In this document: positions 21,236 to 34,350 of the stretch, piece by piece
How positions within the stretch are numbered: the first letter of the stretch is position 1
Layout of the letters: every line of letters begins with the position of its first letter
Origin: Candidatus Gastranaerophilales bacterium
Lineage (GTDB): Bacteria; Cyanobacteriota; Vampirovibrionia; Gastranaerophilales; Gastranaerophilaceae
Assembly (NCBI GenBank): GCA_944324055.1
Contig: CALUUV010000006.1
Coordinates: forward strand, 1-40,030
Direction of reading: 5' to 3'
DNA: 40,030 nt
Program-made: the position numbers and the translations under genes
The notes under the pieces: model-generated
Seen by the model: only the letters and a program-made list of their open reading frames with translations
The model's database searches: none
What the model was told of the DNA's origin: nothing

Positions 21236-24200
21236 ATGGCAATAACTTTAGAAGAGTATAGAAAAAAATATTTAGTCAACAATAAAAAAAGAAATGAAAT
21301 TATAGCACTTCAAAACAAAAATAATAATAAAGATAATAAGCAAAATAAAACAGTTTCTAGTTATGAAGATTATCTAAGTGATAAAAAAATAATAGATACA
21401 GCTTTAAATAGATATAATACATATAATGAAGCAATAAGTGCTGTATCTAATTTTAGTGACGAAGAAATAAATTCTGCATTAACACAAGCTAGAAATAATA
21501 TGAATACATATAAAAGCAATATTATTAATTATGCTAACAAAAATAACATTGAAACATCCGATAATAAAAATATTGTGAAAAGCCAAACAGATTATGGAAA
21601 AGAAGAGTTAGATTATTTGCGTAATAACAAATATGAAGCATTGAAAAATATGAATGGGCCATTAAAAGCCACAGATATTGCATCAAAAGCTCAAGAAAAA
21701 TATGCTGAAAATAAAGAAAAGTTTGATAAACTAATTAAAAAAACAGATGATTATAAAAAATATGATGAGTATCTTTACAACGCAGTACCTCTTTTACAAC
21801 AAATGCAAGATATCAACGAAGTAAATAATGAAGAGGTAAGCAATGCAGATAAAATATTTGCTCCCATTTCATCAACTACCAAAAACAGTTTAAGAGCTAT
21901 ATTTATGCCATCTAGCGGAGGATATAGATTAGAAAATGGATCTATGGTAAATCTCCCTACAAAATCTGATTTAAAAGGGGAACATGTTAAGGATAGTTAT
22001 GAAACTTGGCTTGGAAAATTATATGGTAATGTTACATCCGCGATTGGTCAGATGTTGCCATCAGTGGCTATTGGCCTTGCTACCGGAGGTTTAGGAACTG
22101 CTGCTGGAGCTACCGCAACAGCAGTGAATACTGCTAGAACAGTTGGTTCATTAGCTTCTATGTTTGCAAATGTTTCCAGAAACGCTACTAACCAAAAATT
22201 GATGGAAGGCTATACAGAACAACAAGCTAATCAATATGGATTAATGAGTGGGGCTGTAGAAACAGCTACAGAAATGATGTTTGGTGGTTTAGGCAAGTTA
22301 ATGGGTACTGGTGCACTAGATAGAGTAGTTACTGATAGATTAACTAGGAATATTCAAAATAGAGTATTTAAAACTTTAGCAGATGCTGGAATATCCAGCG
22401 TAGGCGAAGGAATAGAAGAAGTTGTTAGTGATTTATTGCAACCTGTTGTTCAACAAATAGCTTTAGATGATCCACGAAAATATTCAGAAATTATGAAAGA
22501 TCAAAATGTATTAGAAGATTTCTTAGTAGGTACGGTATCATCTTTAATAATGAGCGCTCCATCAACTGTTGTAAGTTTTGCAAATAATAGCCAAAATAAT
22601 CAAACTAATAACTCAAGTCAAGTAAATTTACCACAAGCAAATTCACAAGAATCAATAGTAAATGATGCAGTAAATTCAAGAATAGAGCAGAATAATATTA
22701 AAGCTCCAACTTTAAATGAAAAGCAAAATATAAATCTGCCATCTATTAATAATCAAAATAATAATATTTTTTCTCAACAAGTTGATGAAGTAATAAAAGG
22801 AACTTTTAACAAAGATAATCATATGACTGTCTTAGAACACACTCCAGAAGTGTTACAAAGGTTAGGAGTTAAGGATTATCCTATAACTTTAACTGTGAAT
22901 AAATTAGATAGAATAATGAATGAAAGTGGTAATCAAAATGGAGAGTATCATGGTTTAGGAATAGAAACAGTCAAAAAAATACCCCAAGCATTACAAAACC
23001 CATTAGATATTATTAAATCACATAATAACAGTTATGTTTTAACGACAGATTTAAGTGATAGCCAAAATAGACAAGTTATAGCTAGTATTAAAATAGATGG
23101 AAAAGGTTACATTGATAATATTGAAATTGATACAAATGTGATGACTAGTGCTTATGGAAGAAATAATTATGATTCTTGGATGCAAAATCACCAGAATAAA
23201 GGTAATATTGTTTATGATATTGATAGAGGATATGTAAACACAAAAAAACTTGATACTATCCCTAGGCTACAATTGCCTAACAACAATATCAAGTATGTTA
23301 AATCGGATGTCAAGGATAGGGGCCAATTCCCTATGCGAGACTCTAGTAGCAGTACTTCTACTAGTGATATTCCGAAGAATACCAGTCCGATTTCTTATAA
23401 CAATAATAGCACAAATCTAACACAAAGTCAAATTGCACCATTACTATTAAATAATATGCAAAATGATAGTGATAATATACAAAATATTAATCTGCCTAAT
23501 TTTAATAGAGTATTAAACCCAGTAGAAATATCACAACTAACTTCTGAAGATGCGAGTACAACTCCAATATTACCTAATGTTAATAGAAACCAAGTCAATG
23601 ATAGTAATAGTAAATTCTATCGTAATATTAAAGAAAAAACTAACATGCTTAATGAGCAACAAAAGAACACTATCTTATCAGAAGAAGAAGTACAATATTA
23701 TGACAAAATTACAAATAAAGAAAGCTTAGAAAAAGCATTTGAAAGATTAAATGAAAATGGACGTCATGAAACAGAAAATTGGTTTGCTAAAGATTCTGAA
23801 AATGCAACTGCAGTTGACATAGCAGAAGGTTGGATATTATTAAAACAATATGCCGATAATAATGATTCTGATGGAATGGTAGCAGTTGCTAAAAAACTTC
23901 GTGATATGGGTACTAAAGCGGGCCAAACAGTGCAAGCATTTAATATTATGGCTAGAATGACTCCAGAAGGCATGGTTAAATACGCTCAATCAGAACTATC
24001 AGAAGCTTATGATAGAATGGTTAAGGGTAAAACTCAAAAATGGATTGATAAATATCAAAAAGATTTTGATTTAACTCCGCAAGAAACTGGAGCAATTATG
24101 GAAATTATGAAAAAGGTATCAACTATGGAAGATGGTTATGATAAAAGAGTAGAATTAGCCAAAATTCAAAAAATAATGACCGATAAACTTCCACCAGAAC

Positions 24201-26302
24201 GTGGAGCAGGAATAAAATCATGGATGAGGATATCAATGCTATTTAATGCAAAAACTCAAGTAAGAAATGTTATGGGTAATGCAGTAATAGCGCCAGTAAA
24301 TGCCTTTAGTGATTTATTTGCTAGTATGGCTGATAAAGTTGTTGGTGCTAAAACCGGCTATAGAACAACTGGTGTAACTAATGTTAAAAATTATGTAAAA
24401 GGATTTAAAGAAGGAGCTTATCAAAGTTATAATGATTTTAGAAAAGGCATAAACACTCGAAACATTCAAGGAAACAGATTTGAAATAAGTGAAGGCAAAT
24501 CATTTAATAATAATACTTCAATTGGCAAAGCACTAAATAGAGTAGATAGCTTATTATCATTTATGCTAGATGCAGGAGATAGGACCTTCTATGAAGCAAC
24601 ATTTACTAATTCGATTAACAATCAATTAGTTTTAAATAACACAACAGAGGTTACACAAGAAATGATTGATATAGCAACTCAAGAAGCTTTATCAAGAACG
24701 TGGCAAGATAACAATGAATATACAAGAATGGTATTAGGAGTTAGAAAAGGATTAAATAAATTAGGAAAATTTTTTCTTTTGGGGAACGAAAATTATGGGC
24801 TAGGAGATATTTTAATCCCTTTTGCCAAAACTCCGGCTAATTTAACAAAAGCGATTGTTGATTACTCTCCAGTTGGATTAGTTAATAGTTTAGCAAAAGG
24901 TAAAAAGTTGAAAAATGCAATTGAAACAGGTCAATTTACTCCACAAATGCAGCATGATTTCGTACAATCTTTAGGTAAGGCTACAGTTGGAACTATGTTA
25001 TATGTAGCTGGCTATGCTCTTGCTAAAGCAGGAATTGTAAGTGGTGAAAGTGATGATGACAAAGATGTTAGGGATTTTATGAAAAATACTTTAGGAGTAA
25101 ATTCTTATTCTATTAAAATAGGAAATAAATCATTTACTTATGATTGGGCTCAACCGATAGCAGCTCCACTTTCGATTATGGCTAATATAGTTCAAAAAGA
25201 TAAAGAAGATGCTAATTTGTTAGAAAAAATATTCGGTTCTTTAGATACAGCAGGAAACATTTTATTAGAACAATCTTTTATGGAAAGTATAAATACTGCT
25301 TTAAGTAATAATGATGGACTTGCTACTGGTATTGAGGAAGCTATATTAGATCTACCAGCAAGAGCTATACCAACATTTATGAAACAAATAGTAGATTTAA
25401 CAGATAGCACGCAAAGAACATCCTTTGAATATAATAAACCAATTCAAAGTATGATTAACAGTGTTAAAGCTAAAATTCCTGGATTAAGTAAAACTCTTGC
25501 ACCTAGTGTGGATACAATGGGTAGAGAAATACAAAGATATGGTGGAAATAACAATATATTCAATGTGTTTTTAAATCCGGCCAATGTTTCTACTGAAAAT
25601 ATAAGTGAGAGTGCAGAGGAAATCTACAGACTATATAAAGCTACTGGCGATAAGACAATTATGCCAAGAGTAGCTCCATATTATGTAGACCAAACAGATG
25701 GTAGAATTACATTAGATAGTAAAACTAAATCTGAGTATCAAAAAGTATCAGGAAGCATCATAGAAGAAAGTGTAGAAAGACTGTTAAATGATACCGATTA
25801 TCAAAACCTGAATGATACAGATAAAGCTTCCGTAATTAAATCTATTGTAGATTTTTCTTACAATAAAGCAAAAGAGGAAGTTTTAGATATATCCATGTCT
25901 AACGAATACAATAAAATCAATCAATATCTTGATATGGGCGGAAATGTAGCAGATTACTACATGAATAAAGAAGAAATAAACTATTCTTTAAGTAATCCTG
26001 AAAAATACGCTACGATTTTGCAGATAACTGACTATGATAATTATCTGTCTTATAAGGGAGAACTTGAGAGTATTAGAGATGGTACGGAAAATAAAAAAGA
26101 AGCTACTATCAGATATGTAGATTCACTTAATTTGACACTTCCTCAAAAAGCAATGTTTATTAGGCAGTATTATAGTTCTTATGACTATTACAACGAACAA
26201 ATTGTAAACTATATAAAGCAAAATGTAAGTTCTGTTGAGGAAAGAAGTGCTATTTTAACAGAGTTAGGTTTTACAATAAGGAATGGGAGAGTGTATTGGT
26301 AA
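21236..26302 (+). CDS. 1688-aa polyvalent internal virion protein with PBECR-like nuclease domain
   Basis: The longest gene in the window. In order: helical N-terminus; a Gly/Ala-rich hydrophobic region (about 265-300); Asn-rich linker (about 460-520); a domain at about 525-685 (MTVLEHTPEVLQRLGVKDYP, then HGLGIETVKKIPQALQNP) resembling the Barnase-EndoU-Colicin-RelE-like toxins found at MuF C-termini; another linker; and an LPD38-like large polyvalent region (about 985-1320) beginning RISMLFNAKTQVRNVMGN, with a hydrophobic helix near 1250. It is probably packaged and ejected into the host, where the nuclease domain could act on host RNA. Confidence 0.75.
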   Translation: MAITLEEYRKKYLVNNKKRNEIIALQNKNNNKDNKQNKTVSSYEDYLSDKKIIDTALNRYNTYNEAISAVSNFSDEEINSALTQARNNMNTYKSNIINYANKNNIETSDNKNIVKSQTDYGKEELDYLRNNKYEALKNMNGPLKATDIASKAQEKYAENKEKFDKLIKKTDDYKKYDEYLYNAVPLLQQMQDINEVNNEEVSNADKIFAPISSTTKNSLRAIFMPSSGGYRLENGSMVNLPTKSDLKGEHVKDSYETWLGKLYGNVTSAIGQMLPSVAIGLATGGLGTAAGATATAVNTARTVGSLASMFANVSRNATNQKLMEGYTEQQANQYGLMSGAVETATEMMFGGLGKLMGTGALDRVVTDRLTRNIQNRVFKTLADAGISSVGEGIEEVVSDLLQPVVQQIALDDPRKYSEIMKDQNVLEDFLVGTVSSLIMSAPSTVVSFANNSQNNQTNNSSQVNLPQANSQESIVNDAVNSRIEQNNIKAPTLNEKQNINLPSINNQNNNIFSQQVDEVIKGTFNKDNHMTVLEHTPEVLQRLGVKDYPITLTVNKLDRIMNESGNQNGEYHGLGIETVKKIPQALQNPLDIIKSHNNSYVLTTDLSDSQNRQVIASIKIDGKGYIDNIEIDTNVMTSAYGRNNYDSWMQNHQNKGNIVYDIDRGYVNTKKLDTIPRLQLPNNNIKYVKSDVKDRGQFPMRDSSSSTSTSDIPKNTSPISYNNNSTNLTQSQIAPLLLNNMQNDSDNIQNINLPNFNRVLNPVEISQLTSEDASTTPILPNVNRNQVNDSNSKFYRNIKEKTNMLNEQQKNTILSEEEVQYYDKITNKESLEKAFERLNENGRHETENWFAKDSENATAVDIAEGWILLKQYADNNDSDGMVAVAKKLRDMGTKAGQTVQAFNIMARMTPEGMVKYAQSELSEAYDRMVKGKTQKWIDKYQKDFDLTPQETGAIMEIMKKVSTMEDGYDKRVELAKIQKIMTDKLPPERGAGIKSWMRISMLFNAKTQVRNVMGNAVIAPVNAFSDLFASMADKVVGAKTGYRTTGVTNVKNYVKGFKEGAYQSYNDFRKGINTRNIQGNRFEISEGKSFNNNTSIGKALNRVDSLLSFMLDAGDRTFYEATFTNSINNQLVLNNTTEVTQEMIDIATQEALSRTWQDNNEYTRMVLGVRKGLNKLGKFFLLGNENYGLGDILIPFAKTPANLTKAIVDYSPVGLVNSLAKGKKLKNAIETGQFTPQMQHDFVQSLGKATVGTMLYVAGYALAKAGIVSGESDDDKDVRDFMKNTLGVNSYSIKIGNKSFTYDWAQPIAAPLSIMANIVQKDKEDANLLEKIFGSLDTAGNILLEQSFMESINTALSNNDGLATGIEEAILDLPARAIPTFMKQIVDLTDSTQRTSFEYNKPIQSMINSVKAKIPGLSKTLAPSVDTMGREIQRYGGNNNIFNVFLNPANVSTENISESAEEIYRLYKATGDKTIMPRVAPYYVDQTDGRITLDSKTKSEYQKVSGSIIEESVERLLNDTDYQNLNDTDKASVIKSIVDFSYNKAKEEVLDISMSNEYNKINQYLDMGGNVADYYMNKEEINYSLSNPEKYATILQITDYDNYLSYKGELESIRDGTENKKEATIRYVDSLNLTLPQKAMFIRQYYSSYDYYNEQIVNYIKQNVSSVEERSAILTELGFTIRNGRVYW

Positions 26303-28671
26303 TGAATATAATGGATTCTAAAAAAGCAGTTACTGCTGAAGATTTAATACGTAGATATAATCTTGAAAATCTAAAAAGTGATAGAAAATCTATTCAAACA
26401 ATTAAAGAAAATGCCAACAATACAAACAATCTCTTGAATAATTTCATAGAAGCGACTGTATCAGATTTACAAAACCTACAAGACCAAGTAGACGGAAACA
26501 TAGCTACTTGGTTTTTTAGTGGGGTTCCAACTTTAGAAAATAATCCAGCAGTAGACTGGACTAGTGATGAAGATAAAAACAATCATTTAGGCGATTTATA
26601 TTATGATAAAGATACAGGGTATGCTTATCGATTTTCTTTAGAGGAAAATACTTACAAATGGGTGAAATTAAGTGATAGTGATATAGCAGAGGCACTAGCT
26701 TTAGCAAACGCAGCACAAGATACTGCCGATAGTAAAAGGCGTGTGTTCGTAACAACTCCAAGCCCACCATATGATGTTGGCGATATTTGGATAAAAGAAG
26801 ATACTGATTTATATCGTTGTGCGGTATCTCGAAGTGCTGGAAATTTTAATGAAGCAGAATGGGTTAAAGCAACAGATTATTCTAATGATGATTATGCCAA
26901 GAATGTAGAAGCTATCTTAAATCAATTTAAGCAAACAGTAGAAACTGATTATGCAACCAAAGTGTTACTAAACACCACAAAAGAAAGCATTTTAGGAGTT
27001 GTGGAGACAAAGACAACAGAAGTCGAAACTACTCTAATAGGTTATATTGATTTATTTAGTGTAGATCTAGATTTATATAATCTTACAATACCTGTTAATA
27101 ATGACAAAAAACCACTTGAAAACAAAACCTATGAAATAGGGTATTATTCATATTTTAAAGGGAATCAAGTTAGTGTTACTCCAACAAGTTCAAACTCTAA
27201 TGCTGGAATTACTGTTTCTTACGCAAATAGCAAGATAAACTTGACAGTTGATAATGATACGGCGATTACAAATTTAACAAATGAATTTATATTCAATTTC
27301 AATTACACAGATAGTGAAGATGAAACTGAATACGTTGTGCAGAAAAAAATAGTAGTTGTACTAGCAGAAAAGGGAGCAACTGGAGAAAAAGGTGATACTG
27401 GTTTAACTGGTGCAACTGGAGCTGATGGTGCAGATGGCAAGAGTGCTTATCAAATTTGGTTAGATGCTGGAAATACCGGTACAGAAGAAGAATATCTCGA
27501 AAGTTTAAAGGGCGAAAAGGGTGATACAGGCGATCAAGGCCCTCAAGGAATTCAAGGAGAAAAGGGAAGTACTGGAGAACAAGGTCCTCAAGGTCCACAG
27601 GGATTAAAAGGTGATAAAGGAGATACAGGCGATCAAGGACCACAGGGGATTCAAGGTGAGAAAGGTGATAAGGGAGATAAGGGTGACACAGGTGATACTG
27701 GTCCTCAAGGTCCACCCGGCATTCAAGGTCCACCCGGAGCAAACGGAACATCGACTTATTTTTATGTACGATATTCTGAAAACGCAACTGGCAATCCCAT
27801 GACGGAAGCACCAACCGCAAACAGTAAATATATGGGTGTAGCAAGTACCACTAGTCCAACAGCTCCCACAAGCTCAAGCGGATATGTTTGGAGCTTAATA
27901 AAAGGTGCTGATGGCCCAAACGGAACTCCAGGACAACCGGGGGAAAACGGACAATCATCATATCTTCATATAAAGTATTCTGAAGATGGAAGTACATTTA
28001 CTCCTGCCGATGAAGAAGCAGGCTATGCTCTAGGTGAAAAACCAAGTGCTTATATAGGACAATATGTAGATTTTACTGAAGCAGATAGCACAAATTTTAG
28101 TGATTATACTTGGTATAAATTCACAGAAGATATTGATGGAACTTTAAATAATTTACAAAATCAAATAAGCGAAAATGCTACAACAACTGCTAATAATTAT
28201 CAAGATATAATTGGACGACTTGACGGATATGCAACGGTTGAAAATGTAACAGAAGTCACTAATCGTGTAGAAAATCTTACAACGTCAACTGAACAGGCTA
28301 TTAATATTATTGAGGATATTCAAACAAATGGAGTAACACAGATTCATACCGAAACTGGATATTCATTTGATAAAGATGGCTTAAATATTGAAAAAACAAA
28401 TGCTCCAACAGGATCTAAATTAGACGAAGCAGGACTTGAAATCAAAGATAAAACAAGTGCTGCCGAAACAACACAGTTTTATAGCGGCTATGTAGATGAT
28501 GAAATGGCAGAAAAGACTACTGAACTTGAAAAATATAAAGGCCAAACTGTTACATATAGTAATAACTTTATTTTTGAAAATTATTTGCAATCTGGAAATG
28601 GACGTTGGGAAGATGTTGAAGATGAAGTATATGGCAAAGGAATTGGCTTCTTTATCGGAGGTGGTAGCTAA
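26302..28671 (+). CDS. Tail fibre with collagen-like repeats
   Basis: ATG 26302 overlaps the preceding stop. The 789-residue protein has an N-terminal helical attachment part, a beta region, then Gly-X-Y collagen triplets in two blocks (about 355-380 and 405-480) separated by an AYQIWLDAGNTGTEEEYLES insert, then FYVRYS and YLHIKYSEDG beta modules and a coiled coil at the C-terminus. Collagen repeats trimerise fibres. GC is locally higher because of Gly/Pro codons. It is likely the structural shaft of the host-recognition apparatus. Confidence 0.85.
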   Translation: MNIMDSKKAVTAEDLIRRYNLENLKSDRKSIQTIKENANNTNNLLNNFIEATVSDLQNLQDQVDGNIATWFFSGVPTLENNPAVDWTSDEDKNNHLGDLYYDKDTGYAYRFSLEENTYKWVKLSDSDIAEALALANAAQDTADSKRRVFVTTPSPPYDVGDIWIKEDTDLYRCAVSRSAGNFNEAEWVKATDYSNDDYAKNVEAILNQFKQTVETDYATKVLLNTTKESILGVVETKTTEVETTLIGYIDLFSVDLDLYNLTIPVNNDKKPLENKTYEIGYYSYFKGNQVSVTPTSSNSNAGITVSYANSKINLTVDNDTAITNLTNEFIFNFNYTDSEDETEYVVQKKIVVVLAEKGATGEKGDTGLTGATGADGADGKSAYQIWLDAGNTGTEEEYLESLKGEKGDTGDQGPQGIQGEKGSTGEQGPQGPQGLKGDKGDTGDQGPQGIQGEKGDKGDKGDTGDTGPQGPPGIQGPPGANGTSTYFYVRYSENATGNPMTEAPTANSKYMGVASTTSPTAPTSSSGYVWSLIKGADGPNGTPGQPGENGQSSYLHIKYSEDGSTFTPADEEAGYALGEKPSAYIGQYVDFTEADSTNFSDYTWYKFTEDIDGTLNNLQNQISENATTTANNYQDIIGRLDGYATVENVTEVTNRVENLTTSTEQAINIIEDIQTNGVTQIHTETGYSFDKDGLNIEKTNAPTGSKLDEAGLEIKDKTSAAETTQFYSGYVDDEMAEKTTELEKYKGQTVTYSNNFIFENYLQSGNGRWEDVEDEVYGKGIGFFIGGGS

Positions 28672-30020
28672 TGGATTTTATGCCTCTTAACATTCAATTA
28701 TTTGGCGCTAGTTTATCGATATCAGCATATGAAACAGATATTAGTACTGCAAACAATACTAGTTATGTTCAATTATCTATTTCTGCGACTACAACTGGTT
28801 CTACTTTTAACAACACAGGAAGTGCTTATGTAAATGCAACCTTGACAGGTCAAAACAACACTTATTCAATACCTAAAACGTATTTTAACATTAGCAAAGC
28901 AACAACTAAGGTAATTTATAGTGGCAAAATAGGACCGTTTACTCATAATTCCGACGGGTCATTAAATCCAATTCAAATCAACGCTAGTACATATATTACA
29001 AGTAATTACTCACCATCTGGATCAACGACGTGCAATATGTCTACGATTGCTCGTAAGAGTAGCATAAGCGCTACTAATGCCGAAATAGAAGGCACTAGCG
29101 TTATCACAATTAACAAACAAGCTAGTAGTTTTACTCATACACTTCAATATTCTTTTGCTGGATTAACTGGTACTATTGCAACAAAGACAAGTGATAGTAG
29201 TATTAATTTTACAGTACCAACAAGTTTTTATGCGAAGATTCCAAATTCAAAAAGTGGAGTATGTACAATAACTTGTACTACATATTCTGGAAATACAAAT
29301 TTAGGAAGTACTACTACTACATTTACAGCGAGTTGTAGCGAATCGGCCTGTAAGCCAAGTGTATCAGCAACAATTATAGATACAAACACCAAAACAACAT
29401 CTTTAACTGGGGATAGCTCTAAATTAATTAGATACAAGTCAACTGCTAGAGTTACAGTTAATGCAACTCCTAAAAATAGTGCTAGTATAAGTTCAAAAAG
29501 CATTGATGGAGCATCAGTTAGCAGTTATAAAGATTTCCCTAATGTAAATAAAAATTCATTTAGTATTTCCGCAACAGATTCACGTGGATTTTCAAACACG
29601 ATTACAAAATCAGCAACTATTGTTAATTACGTTCAACTAACGTGTAATGCAAAATTTGCACGAACTAATCAAACATCGAGTACAGTTAATTTGAATTACA
29701 GTGGTAATTACTTTAATGGCAATTTTGGTGCCACTAGCAACACATTAACAATGAGTTGGAAATATCGTGAAAAGGGTGCTAGTGAATGGATTGCTGGAGG
29801 GCCTTTAAGTCCAACTATAAGTGGCAACACGTATTCAGGTTCAATTCAATGTGGGACAAACTTTAACTATGAAAAAAATTATGAATTTATGGTTGAATTT
29901 AGCGATAAAATTGATAGCTTGAATAGCGGAATAATAACATTATCAAAAGGACAAGGAAGCCTTGAAATATATGATAAAGCCATTAAAGCAAATGGCGAAG
30001 TCTTATTTTATTGGGACTAG
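28671..30020 (+). CDS. DUF859-like tail fibre protein
   Basis: This 449-residue Ser/Thr/Asn-rich beta protein starts in a TAATG overlap behind GGAGGTGG. Modules include KIGPFTHNSDGSLNPIQI, TIARKSSIS, and Ig-like repeats with SATDSRGFSNT. Together they match the Gram-positive phage fibre family DUF859. It ends GEVLFYWD, and the small cassettes that follow appear to continue the receptor-binding tip as separate polypeptides. Confidence 0.8.
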   Translation: MDFMPLNIQLFGASLSISAYETDISTANNTSYVQLSISATTTGSTFNNTGSAYVNATLTGQNNTYSIPKTYFNISKATTKVIYSGKIGPFTHNSDGSLNPIQINASTYITSNYSPSGSTTCNMSTIARKSSISATNAEIEGTSVITINKQASSFTHTLQYSFAGLTGTIATKTSDSSINFTVPTSFYAKIPNSKSGVCTITCTTYSGNTNLGSTTTTFTASCSESACKPSVSATIIDTNTKTTSLTGDSSKLIRYKSTARVTVNATPKNSASISSKSIDGASVSSYKDFPNVNKNSFSISATDSRGFSNTITKSATIVNYVQLTCNAKFARTNQTSSTVNLNYSGNYFNGNFGATSNTLTMSWKYREKGASEWIAGGPLSPTISGNTYSGSIQCGTNFNYEKNYEFMVEFSDKIDSLNSGIITLSKGQGSLEIYDKAIKANGEVLFYWD

Positions 30021-30032
30021 AAAGGAAGATAT

Positions 30033-30113
30033 ATGAGATATAAAAATAAATTGACGGGGGGGGGTACTTATTTAATAAGTAGCTCCCTAACATATGTTAG
30101 TGATACCAAATGA
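30033..30113 (+). CDS. 26-aa leader ORF with G9 tract
   Basis: ATG 30033 has a strong AAAGGAAG site. The 26-codon ORF contains nine Gs (30056-30064) encoding TGGG and ends at TGA 30111-30113, overlapping ATG 30110 of the next gene (ATGA). With eight Gs the frame would stop at a TAA about three codons on; with ten it would stop at TAG 30080. Cassette 1 has no ribosome site of its own, so tract length would set its translation. A 7-bp hairpin (TACTTAT-TTA-ATAAGTA) follows the tract. Confidence 0.6.
   Translation: MRYKNKLTGGGTYLISSSLTYVSDTK
30056..30064 (+). repeat. Poly-G tract (G9)
   Basis: Nine consecutive Gs in very AT-rich DNA, immediately followed by a hairpin. Such tracts slip in replication and are classic phase-variation sites. 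Confidence 0.9.
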
Positions 30114-30502
30114 GAATTAATGCAGATGTAAAAATAGGTGACACAGAAACAACTTTAAATGATGTGGAAACTAATAATAATAAATTAAGTTCGATATTAA
30201 AAAATAAAGGCGTAACTGGTCTTAACTTATATCCTGGAGACACGTACCAATTGGATTTACCCAAGAATTCAATATTTATAGAGCCCTTGGTGTCAAGCCA
30301 TGGTTCTGAGACTTCGGGCGGGCAATTTATAACAATAGGTACTGGATATTCGTATATAACTAACAACGATAATACAAATAATGAAAATATTCATCGTGGC
30401 ATGTGGATTTCTTGTAGTTATGAAGGGTTGGTCGCAATATCGACATATCGACATTGTGGCAGTTCAGTAACTGGATTTAGAATTTGGTACATTGACATAT
30501 AA
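30110..30502 (+). CDS. Fibre-tip cassette 1
   Basis: This 130-residue protein begins MRINADVKIGDTETTLNDV, the shared start of the cassette family (compare 31334 and 31816), followed by a distinct beta-rich C-terminal domain (IEPLVSSHG, RGMWISCSYEG, FRIWYIDI). The shared head and divergent tail suggest alternative receptor-binding tips. Translation appears coupled to the poly-G leader just upstream. Confidence 0.7.
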   Translation: MRINADVKIGDTETTLNDVETNNNKLSSILKNKGVTGLNLYPGDTYQLDLPKNSIFIEPLVSSHGSETSGGQFITIGTGYSYITNNDNTNNENIHRGMWISCSYEGLVAISTYRHCGSSVTGFRIWYIDI

Positions 30503-30524
30503 GAGCTTATTATATAAGAATTAT

Positions 30525-30653
30525 ATGGAAAATAAATATACAATTAATCTAATTCGGGGGGGGTTGTTTACTAGTACTTATAAACAACTCAACTCTAATA
30601 GAAAGTGGGGTGGCAGATATTTAGTATCTACACCTCGTGATGTAGTTGATTAA
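30525..30653 (+). CDS. 42-aa leader ORF with G8 tract
   Basis: ATG 30525 (weak ribosome site) opens a 42-codon ORF with eight Gs at 30556-30563 (RGG). It ends at TAA 30651-30653, overlapping the TTG start (30646) of cassette 2. With seven Gs it would end at a TAG near 30621, with nine at a TAG five codons after the tract. An 8-bp hairpin (GTTGTTTA/TAAACAAC) directly follows the tract, as in the first leader. The C-terminal GGRYLVS recalls GGTYLIS of the first leader. Confidence 0.55.
   Translation: MENKYTINLIRGGLFTSTYKQLNSNRKWGGRYLVSTPRDVVD
30556..30563 (+). repeat. Poly-G tract (G8)
   Basis: Eight consecutive Gs inside the second leader ORF, followed at once by an 8-bp stem-loop. Same arrangement as the G9 tract 500 bp upstream. 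Confidence 0.9.
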
Positions 30654-31311
30654 GTTAGGAAACGGTGGATTAAATGCTATTTATCCAGTTGGCTCAATTT
30701 ATATGAGTGTTAACTCTACTAATCCAAGTCAGCTTTTTGGTGGCACTTGGGAGTTGTTAAAAACTTTTACCGGCGGAGAATTACTAGCTTATGGAATAAT
30801 AAATTCAATAGGAACAGGGACAAAAATGGCTATTGATGAAGTAAAAGCAATATCAGACAGTAATTTTCCTAACAAAACAGCTAATATAACAAATTATGTT
30901 GATGGGGTTTTAAGCTTTGAATCTGGTGCTTTTAAAATAAATAAAACAAATATAATTGGCTTTGTTGAGGTAGAGACTACGGTAAACGGAGATGTTAGAG
31001 ATAACGTTACTGGTATTTATTTTAAAAATAATGCTAACGAATTGCCTTCTGGAGTTACCTATATGAAAAATATATATGGCTGCATTATAAATATATATGG
31101 TTATTATGGTGGGTGCACAAATACATCTGTTTATAAAGTTGATACTGAAACTGACACTCCGTTTTATGCCAATCCCAACTTTTCTCCATATACTTGCTTT
31201 TCTCCATATGTTGGATCATTTACCCCAAATGCAGGTGGTTTATCAAGCTATCAAATAATAAAAGTATATGCCAAAAAGCAACTAACATATTTGTGGAAAC
31301 GCACAGCTTAA
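30646..31311 (+). CDS. Fibre-tip cassette 2 (T4-fibre-like tip motif)
   Basis: TTG 30646 is the only plausible start; TAG lies directly before it and no clear ribosome site is present, so it probably depends on the leader. The 221-residue protein has NAIYPVGSIYMSVNSTNPSQ and LFGGTWELLKT near its N-terminus, a motif widespread in phage fibre and baseplate tips, then a Tyr/Asn-rich variable domain. It is flanked by an 11-bp inverted repeat (30616-30626 and 31316-31326). Confidence 0.7.
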   Translation: MIKLGNGGLNAIYPVGSIYMSVNSTNPSQLFGGTWELLKTFTGGELLAYGIINSIGTGTKMAIDEVKAISDSNFPNKTANITNYVDGVLSFESGAFKINKTNIIGFVEVETTVNGDVRDNVTGIYFKNNANELPSGVTYMKNIYGCIINIYGYYGGCTNTSVYKVDTETDTPFYANPNFSPYTCFSPYVGSFTPNAGGLSSYQIIKVYAKKQLTYLWKRTA

Positions 31312-31333
31312 TCATTACTAAATATCAAAATAT

Positions 31334-31789
31334 GTGAAAATAAATGAAAATATAGAAGTTGGCGATACAAAATTTAAAATAAACGAAAAAAATTATGCCA
31401 TGGTGGTTTACCAAAATACATCACAAAATGGAATGAAGTGGAGTTATCAAAAATTTAAAGCAAGTAGTGGTTGGGCTCAAGGAAATAAAATATCTTATAA
31501 CAATGGAAACGTTATTATTAATGGTGCAAAAGCAGTCAAAATTAACGTTAAAATGACTATAGCTAGTAATTCTTATAATTATGATAATTCAATTGTTATT
31601 TGGAATAATGGAGATAGTTATATATTTAAATTTGATAATGCTAAAGACTATATTATATCTGATTTTATTATTAAAAAAGATAGTCCAACAGATTGGAATA
31701 TTAACTTGAGAAAATATACAGATAATTTGAGCGATCAACTAATAACAATAGATACACTAAATTACATGTCCGTTGAAGTAATCGAATGA
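31334..31789 (+). CDS. Fibre-tip cassette 3
   Basis: GTG 31334 (within ATGTGA) starts a 151-residue protein beginning MKINENIEVGDTKFKINEKN, the cassette-family head, followed by a different beta-rich, Asn/Tyr-rich domain. No ribosome site precedes it, so expression may rely on reinitiation from cassette 2, whose stop is 22 bases upstream. Confidence 0.65.
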   Translation: MKINENIEVGDTKFKINEKNYAMVVYQNTSQNGMKWSYQKFKASSGWAQGNKISYNNGNVIINGAKAVKINVKMTIASNSYNYDNSIVIWNNGDSYIFKFDNAKDYIISDFIIKKDSPTDWNINLRKYTDNLSDQLITIDTLNYMSVEVIE

Positions 31790-31815
31790 AGAGTTGAGTA
31801 TCTAGTAAAGATACT

Positions 31816-32193
31816 ATGAAAATAAATGAAAACATAAAAATAGGCAATAAAAACACAACTTTTAAAGATTTAATTGATTGTAAAGATTATACATCGCAAT
31901 GTGCTTTTATGAATTGTACTTTGCAATCCGGGAAAATATTAAAAATCGGAAGGTTGGTAATAGTTCAAATATCTATATTGCCTACAATTACAAATTCGTG
32001 GGCTAATATTTGTAAAGTACCGGAATCGTTATATCCAGTAAGAATATTCGATAATGGAACACCTTTGACTGGTACAGAATTTTGGGTTTATGGTACTGGT
32101 GCTGGTAATGGTGCAGGAAATATTAGAGGTGATATCGTTAAAGACGAAATTAAAACTATAGCATCAATCTATTTATGTGAGGAGAGTGATTAA
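31816..32193 (+). CDS. Fibre-tip cassette 4
   Basis: ATG 31816 follows directly after a perfect 7-bp hairpin (AGTATCT-AGTAA-AGATACT, 31797-31815) that would occlude initiation. The 125-residue protein begins MKINENIKIGNKNTTFKDL and then has its own domain with four cysteines and a Gly-rich GTGAGNGAGN segment. It is the last cassette before the lysis genes. Confidence 0.65.
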   Translation: MKINENIKIGNKNTTFKDLIDCKDYTSQCAFMNCTLQSGKILKIGRLVIVQISILPTITNSWANICKVPESLYPVRIFDNGTPLTGTEFWVYGTGAGNGAGNIRGDIVKDEIKTIASIYLCEESD

Positions 32194-34186: not shown

Positions 34187-34350
34187 CTCTGAAAAGAGTA
34201 AAATGGGCTGCGTTGTGAAGCAGAAATGTGAGGGACATGTTAGACGGCCATTATGTACTTTTATTGTACAGCTATGAATAGTTATGTGAAGCAGAAATGC
34301 GAGGGACATTTAAATCTATTCTATTGTTAGAGAGAGGCTAGACCTCTCTT
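34187..34350 (+). ncRNA. Repeat-containing leader RNA (possible type III antitoxin-like RNA)
   Basis: The transcript from the promoter above carries two 25-base repeats, 34214-34238 and 34285-34309, differing at one base (core GAAGCAGAAATG then GAGGGACAT), 71 bases apart. Between them are TGTAC/GTACA and other short stems. It ends in the 7-bp hairpin AGAGAGG-CTAGA-CCTCTCT. A promoter, repeat RNA, attenuator and MazF-fold gene in this order is how type III toxin-antitoxin loci are built, though those repeats are usually contiguous. Confidence 0.45.
34331..34349 (+). terminator. Attenuator-like hairpin before the MazF-like gene
   Basis: AGAGAGG-CTAGA-CCTCTCT, a perfect 7-bp stem followed by TTGATTTGTATT, a weak T-rich tail. 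Partial read-through would give much RNA and little toxin mRNA. Confidence 0.6.

Follow-up and report, generated by a model that had tools for sequence, protein, structure and literature searches.

Phase variation by means of a leader peptide is known from the pil1 and pil3 loci of Streptococcus gallolyticus (Danne et al. 2014, PMC3894217) and has been proven for pil1, whose stem-loop acts as a transcription terminator. The locus described here resembles pil1 in that tandem repeats lie in a short leader ORF equipped with a ribosome site, in that their number sets the frame, and in that the frame would decide whether ribosomes arrive at a stem-loop, a step which would switch the genes downstream. 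A receptor-binding protein with a hypermutable poly-G tract has been described for Campylobacter phages, according to the papers that cite the original work (Sorensen et al. 2021, cited in PMC11868660, PMC10579305 and PMC10877375). The likeness in this case is that a poly-G tract would switch a receptor-binding protein of a phage here too. The Campylobacter phage tract reportedly lies within the receptor-binding gene itself.

Alternative fibre ends and cassette exchange are also features of invertible and multi-inversion tail-fibre segments (Mu G, P1 C, p15B Min) and of shufflons. Diversity-generating retroelements of phage fibres, as in Bordetella BPP-1, diversify receptor-binding tips and have a GC run and a hairpin near the gene. 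The present locus shares the several alternative fibre ends and the cassette exchange with the former, and the tip diversification and the GC run with a hairpin close to the gene with the latter. However, unlike in the invertible segments, its tips all have one orientation, on the + strand, and no resolvase or invertase was matched on the prophage contig, the only Resolvase family matches being on contig C14; an invertible fibre segment is therefore unlikely. A diversity-generating retroelement was excluded because there is no reverse transcriptase in the whole assembly and no template repeat.

The DNA analyzed, referred to as the window, comprises bases 1 to 40,030 of contig C6 in a draft metagenome-assembled genome (2.07 Mb, 191 contigs). 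The elements of the pil1 type, namely a leader, a ribosome site, repeats and a stem-loop, were all found there, with a strong SD at leader 1 while leader 2 relies on gene 1. The pil1 system is one bacterial pilus operon with GCAGA repeats and a proven terminator, whereas here phage fibre tips follow several leaders per array, the repeats are poly-G, AAGC or ATAC, there are two hairpins with off-frame stops, and the leader stop overlaps the next start. No terminator-like T run was found in the window. The tracts of the window lie in separate leaders rather than inside a receptor-binding gene; in the Campylobacter phages one receptor-binding gene is switched, whereas here a separate leader ORF appears to gate a row of alternative tips. 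In their proposed working the tip arrays are pil1-like and Campylobacter-phage-like, but their architecture is new. No description of phase-variable leaders ahead of fibre-tip arrays was found in the open-access literature searched. These loci probably form an undescribed class of phage host-range locus, in which arrays of exchangeable tips are cut into blocks by phase-variable two-hairpin leaders with three repeat types.

Fibre, leaders and tip genes of the window

The window carries a prophage with genes for a terminase, portal, major head protein, endolysin and integrase. Four small genes in the same direction come after the DUF859 fibre, and beyond them lie the small membrane-type gene and the gene for a holin-like protein. 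L040, a related prophage and the one good genomic relative, has a long tail protein 66% identical to that of the window. Its slot between fibre and small membrane-type gene is free of repeats and contains a single fused fibre that has an end of its own, after which other fibre genes follow. Furthermore, the DUF859 fibre of L013 terminates in a fused Gp10_C tip. Since these fibres have their C-terminal tip fused, the fibre body of the window is without its own tip, and the tips are most likely supplied by the four small genes. Direct searches of viral contigs for homologues of the window fibre and of the long tail protein returned distant matches or none. The coordinates of the array are collected in Table 1.

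Table 1. Features of the fibre-tip array, numbered from the first base of the window.
Feature	Position	Strand	Remarks
Tail fibre body (DUF859 / phrog_372)	28671..30020	+	family matches; no own tip domain at its end
Leader ORF 1, 26 aa	30033..30113	+	strong SD (-10.8 kcal/mol); its TGA stop and the tip gene 1 ATG overlap
G9 tract of leader 1, ON length	30056..30064	+	exact in the sequence
Hairpin of leader 1	30058..30088	+	G tract forms the 5' arm; contains TAA 30073-30075 and TAG 30080-30082, both off-frame stops
Tip gene 1, 130 aa, MRINADVKIG head	30110..30502	+	no family above cut-off
Leader ORF 2, 42 aa	30525..30653	+	without SD; its TAA stop and the tip gene 2 TTG overlap; homologues in other phages
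G8 tract of leader 2, ON length	30556..30563	+	exact in the sequence
Hairpin I of leader 2	30561..30590	+	TAG 30572-30574 of one off frame in the loop
Hairpin II of leader 2	30607..30636	+	TAG 30622-30624 of the other off frame in the loop
Tip gene 2, 221 aa, Gp10_C receptor-type tip domain	30646..31311	+	Pfam PF21939, E 3e-9
Tip gene 3, 151 aa, MKINENIEVG head	31334..31789	+	without SD
Hairpin AGTATCT-agtaa-AGATACT	31797..31815	+	adjoins the ATG of tip gene 4 on the 5' side; z -2.6
Tip gene 4, 125 aa, MKINENIKIG head	31816..32193	+	without SD

An earlier reading of this DNA, made from the sequence only, had proposed that the four small genes share a head or tip motif. The head, M(K/R)IN..(I/V).(I/V)G, is indeed common to tip genes 1, 3 and 4, but tip gene 2 has the Gp10_C tip instead. 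On the basis of their position and shared heads, tip genes 1, 3 and 4 are considered putative fibre tips. An exact pattern search with the MKIN head matched the window only. The AlphaFold model of the tip gene 1 protein alone had a pLDDT of 38 and was left out of the evidence.

The sequence-only reading had further placed G9 and G8 tracts, at 30056 and 30556, in leader ORFs ahead of tip genes 1 and 2, with a hairpin immediately 3' of each tract. The tracts are present exactly as read, and folding predicted the hairpin at both leaders. The 3' end of leader 1 forms ATGA with the start of tip gene 1 and that of leader 2 forms TTGATTAA with the start of tip gene 2, so the proposed overlap of the leader stop with the next start also held. 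In both leaders a simple sequence repeat lies inside the reading frame and its length sets the frame. A gain or loss of 1 or 2 Gs shifts the stop to 30075 or 30082 in leader 1 and to 30574 or 30624 in leader 2, in agreement with the early stop that had been expected, while a change of 3 Gs in either direction keeps the frame and leaves the leader open up to the tip.

Besides the G9 and the G8, the 40-kb window has no G or C run of at least 8 and no tetra- or pentanucleotide array. Elsewhere in the 2.07-Mb assembly, the runs of at least 8 G are one on contig C2 and three on contig C189 (13 G each). C189 (G000, L038) is a 4.35-kb contig with its G13 tracts at 502, 2919 and 4176 in sugar-modification-type genes; it looks like a piece of an epsilonproteobacterial genome that was wrongly binned. 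Two of the three native tracts fall within one 2.2-kb stretch, for which the chance is about 3e-6. No Rfam family was found at the window array.

Pairing with the anti-SD was evaluated at each start. Contrary to the claim that the first two tip genes lack ribosome sites, a weak SD-like site, GTGAT, precedes each of tip genes 1 and 2 (-5.3 and -5.5 kcal/mol); it is tip genes 3 and 4 (-1.1 and -2.9 kcal/mol) and leader 2 (-1.4 kcal/mol) that have practically none. The median of ordinary window genes is -9.5 kcal/mol, with 30 of 31 at -6.2 or stronger. In the leader arrays, ribosome sites are strong at the first leaders 3' of the fibre (-10.2 to -12.5 kcal/mol) and absent at the later leaders (-1.4 to -2.9 kcal/mol). 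The tips directly after leaders have weak to strong sites (-5.2 to -16.1 kcal/mol), located within the leader end. Tips that follow tips have no SD (median -1.6 vs. -9.5 kcal/mol for ordinary genes, p = 1e-7), often with a hairpin immediately 5' of the ATG, and coupling is therefore needed for their translation. This pattern suggests a chain of translational coupling: each leader would gate its own tip and all genes behind it up to the next entry site. Under such a chain, three product sets are predicted for the window: no tip at all, tip 1 alone, or tips 1 to 4.

Homologous leaders in other phages

Screening the host family for members of the Gp10_C family led to a genome, G079, with two tip arrays. 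On its contig C8 (L063) a G9 leader lies directly 5' of a tip gene, and the leader protein is homologous to leader 2 of the window, the two sharing LFT.T......G(D/G)RYL(I/V)S. When a leader profile was run against 276 genomes of the family, the E values were 3e-17 for G079, 1e-13 for the window and 0.013 for the next match, both top genomes being included in the profile. In a sample of 382 genomes of the class, the only strong match was in the genome of the window. Phage records gave no convincing homologue (best E of 2 or worse). A DNA pattern for the hairpin under the leader motif was then applied to viral contigs and retrieved L067, L069 and L066; a relaxed version added L102 and L114. L067 and L069 are one phage, being 100% identical over 5 kb. 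A pattern of poly-G with YPVGS had no match in the viral contigs. The matches to poly-G with GDRYL were unrelated GC-rich contigs only and were rejected, as was a chance match in the window's own genome (L002).

Ten distinct homologous leaders were obtained from six phages: two in the window, one in L063, three in L067, two in L066 and one each in L102 and L114. Each of the eight outside the window, in five phages, lies 5' of a small fibre-tip gene with a Gp10_C, H_lectin or Gp53-like domain; as the seeds were the window, G079 or their hairpin, the number of these eight is no measure of how frequent the system is. The layout is the same in all ten and runs from the ATG through the repeat, absent in L114, and two hairpins, or one in leader 1 of the window, to the tip start. 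Six leaders carry G8 or G9 as their repeat and one carries (AAGC)8, while two have ATAC arrays, (ATAC)15 and (ATAC)12. The L114 leader is open throughout and in the ON frame. The tail genes of L066, L102 and L114 are about 80% identical, and their first leaders, with AAGC, ATAC and no repeat, respectively, occupy the same slot behind the same gene of 256-259 aa, indicating that the repeat turns over while the leader persists.

In all ten leaders one frame ends 1-11 nt inside the tip gene. In the nine that bear a repeat, the two other frames stop at the hairpins, 21-75 nt before the tip. The stops at hairpin I lie 62-75 bases, and those at hairpin II 21-34 bases, before the tip. One off frame has its TAG or TAA in the loop region of hairpin I, and the other has its TAA or TAG in that of hairpin II. 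Leader 1 of the window has a single strong hairpin in which both off frames stop, 27 and 34 bases before the tip. The base pairs of the hairpins vary between phages and the pairing is preserved, with fold z-scores of -1.9 to -6.1.

As assembled, four of the nine repeat-bearing leaders are ON (both window leaders, the L063 leader and L067 alpha) and five are OFF (L067 beta, L067 gamma, L066-1, L066-2 and L102), which are small counts. L067 beta has a G9, and a G8 would put this leader ON. One and the same leader occurs in L063 and, as gamma, in L067, with a 2-nt change: G9-AG in L063 (ON) vs. G9-AGAG in L067 (OFF). This sole direct ON/OFF pair differs by duplication of an AG beside the tract with the number of Gs unchanged, which is a weakness for slippage. 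Additionally, G8 and G9 are short for very fast slippage.

The tips themselves change slots between relatives. A tip cassette of 390 bp that directly follows the gamma leader of L063 (820-1209) occupies the last slot of the L067 array (3662-3273), with 94.9% identity. The borders of the exchange are the ends of the cassette, and a different tip follows the gamma leader in L067; comparison of the two sequences identifies this as a case of cassette shuffling. Array members gave matches to C-terminal domains of the Gp10_C, H-type lectin and Gp53-like types, and the Gp10_C tip profile matches the C-terminus of T4 gp10 in solved structures. The lectin-type domains would suit receptor binding.

Predicted switch and alternative explanations

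It is highly probable that the locus is a phase-variable array of receptor-binding tip genes, whose blocks are gated by repeat-bearing leader ORFs. Each gated block would open with a short leader ORF containing a hypermutable simple sequence repeat. In the ON register, the leader would be translated across two RNA hairpins and end at the start codon of the first tip gene; as this register is read through the hairpins to the tip start, ribosomes are expected to unfold the hairpins and restart at the tip. In the other two registers the leader would stop at a hairpin, the hairpins would remain folded, and neither the first tip nor the SD-less genes behind it would be produced. The features on which the model is based were read from the DNA and consist of the repeats, the single ON frame, the hairpin stops, the natural ON and OFF states, the missing SDs and the tip exchange. 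From them we infer that the repeats slip within a population, that control is exerted by coupling and that receptor choice is affected. The array may choose between tips rather than add or remove tip blocks. The on/off switch proposed by the sequence-only reading gains support from the homologous leaders with AAGC or ATAC, their natural ON and OFF frames and the off-frame stops at conserved hairpins.

Other repeat types in the same place, natural frames that are ON as well as OFF and stops at hairpins are what a contingency locus predicts; neither a chance G tract nor programmed ribosomal frameshifting predicts this pattern. Poly-G followed by a stem-loop does resemble a frameshift signal, and frameshifting, or slippage of RNA polymerase, at the G tracts would give fixed product ratios with the DNA unchanged. 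The off frames lead only to early stops and to no fusion product, the homologous leaders carry arrays of AAGC or ATAC or lack a repeat altogether, and the leaders of relatives are in different frames, so that such a mechanism is very unlikely. It is more improbable still that the G tracts arose by chance in decaying fibre genes, even though the window comes from a draft metagenome-assembled genome of 191 contigs. Tracts of at least 8 G are strongly enriched and the tip ORFs are intact; moreover, independent contigs carry homologous leaders with conserved hairpins and other repeats, a comparison that contradicts a chance origin.

The same switch could act on transcription if hairpin I were an intrinsic terminator whose formation is blocked by the leader ribosome, the mechanism proven for the leader ORF with GCAGA repeats (PMC3894217). 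T-rich sequence lies 3' of hairpin I in L063, L067 alpha and L102, where there may be a termination component. However, no T run lies 3' of the leader hairpins of the window, a terminator scan found no site on the + strand of the window array and none in L102, and the stop-start overlap of 1-11 nt in every leader favors coupling of translation. A transcriptional switch is thus unlikely overall; control appears to be at the level of translation, with attenuation of transcription possible in some relatives. Tip genes 3 and 4, which lack an SD, might not be translated at all, and SD-less tips could possibly be a silent reservoir. In this case only the first tip per leader would be expressed and diversity would come mainly from recombination into the expressed slot. 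The absence of an SD at tips following tips fits this arrangement, as does the 390-bp cassette found in different slots of L063 and L067 with its exchange ends at the cassette borders. Nevertheless, a silent reservoir leaves the repeats and frames unexplained, and no second copy of the window tips was found in their own genome. Such a reservoir, with recombination as the main source of diversity, is somewhat unlikely, and it could act alongside the switch.

If the leader-gated switch is correct, several leaders in series would yield combinatorial tip sets from one genome. A phage with neither reverse transcriptase nor invertase could hedge its host range with repeats in tiny leader genes and cassette-swapped tips. 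Leader-ORF phase variation, proven for the pili of one bacterial species, would be extended to the receptor-binding proteins of phages. Furthermore, the switch states can be read from sequence, so that the tip expression of uncultured phages would be predictable and the prediction testable in read data.

Other fibre loci and features of the prophage

Fibre regions that have no leader do not contain such repeats, with the exception of L064, which has a poly-G layout of its own. In L064 (G101 contig C6, ~5873, minus strand) a G11 tract lies near the 3' end of a 290-aa tail gene, the stop of which overlaps the start of a 211-aa fibre-like gene; a G10 or G13 would give a fusion of ~500 aa. This locus appears to be another poly-G fibre switch, of a different kind. 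A second phage in G079 (contig C23, L062 3096-6758) has a tip array free of leaders and repeats, with a DUF859 fibre and then four Gp10_C tips, of which at least tips 2 and 3 have GGAGG-type ribosome sites 5' of the start.

The window also encodes a 1688-aa tail-module protein (21236-26302) that had no PHROG match; its relative in L040 has 2098 aa and an extra inserted region. Finally, two copies of the repeated sequence GTGAAGCAGAAATGYGAGGGACAT are present in the non-coding DNA between the endolysin and the integrase (34205-34320).
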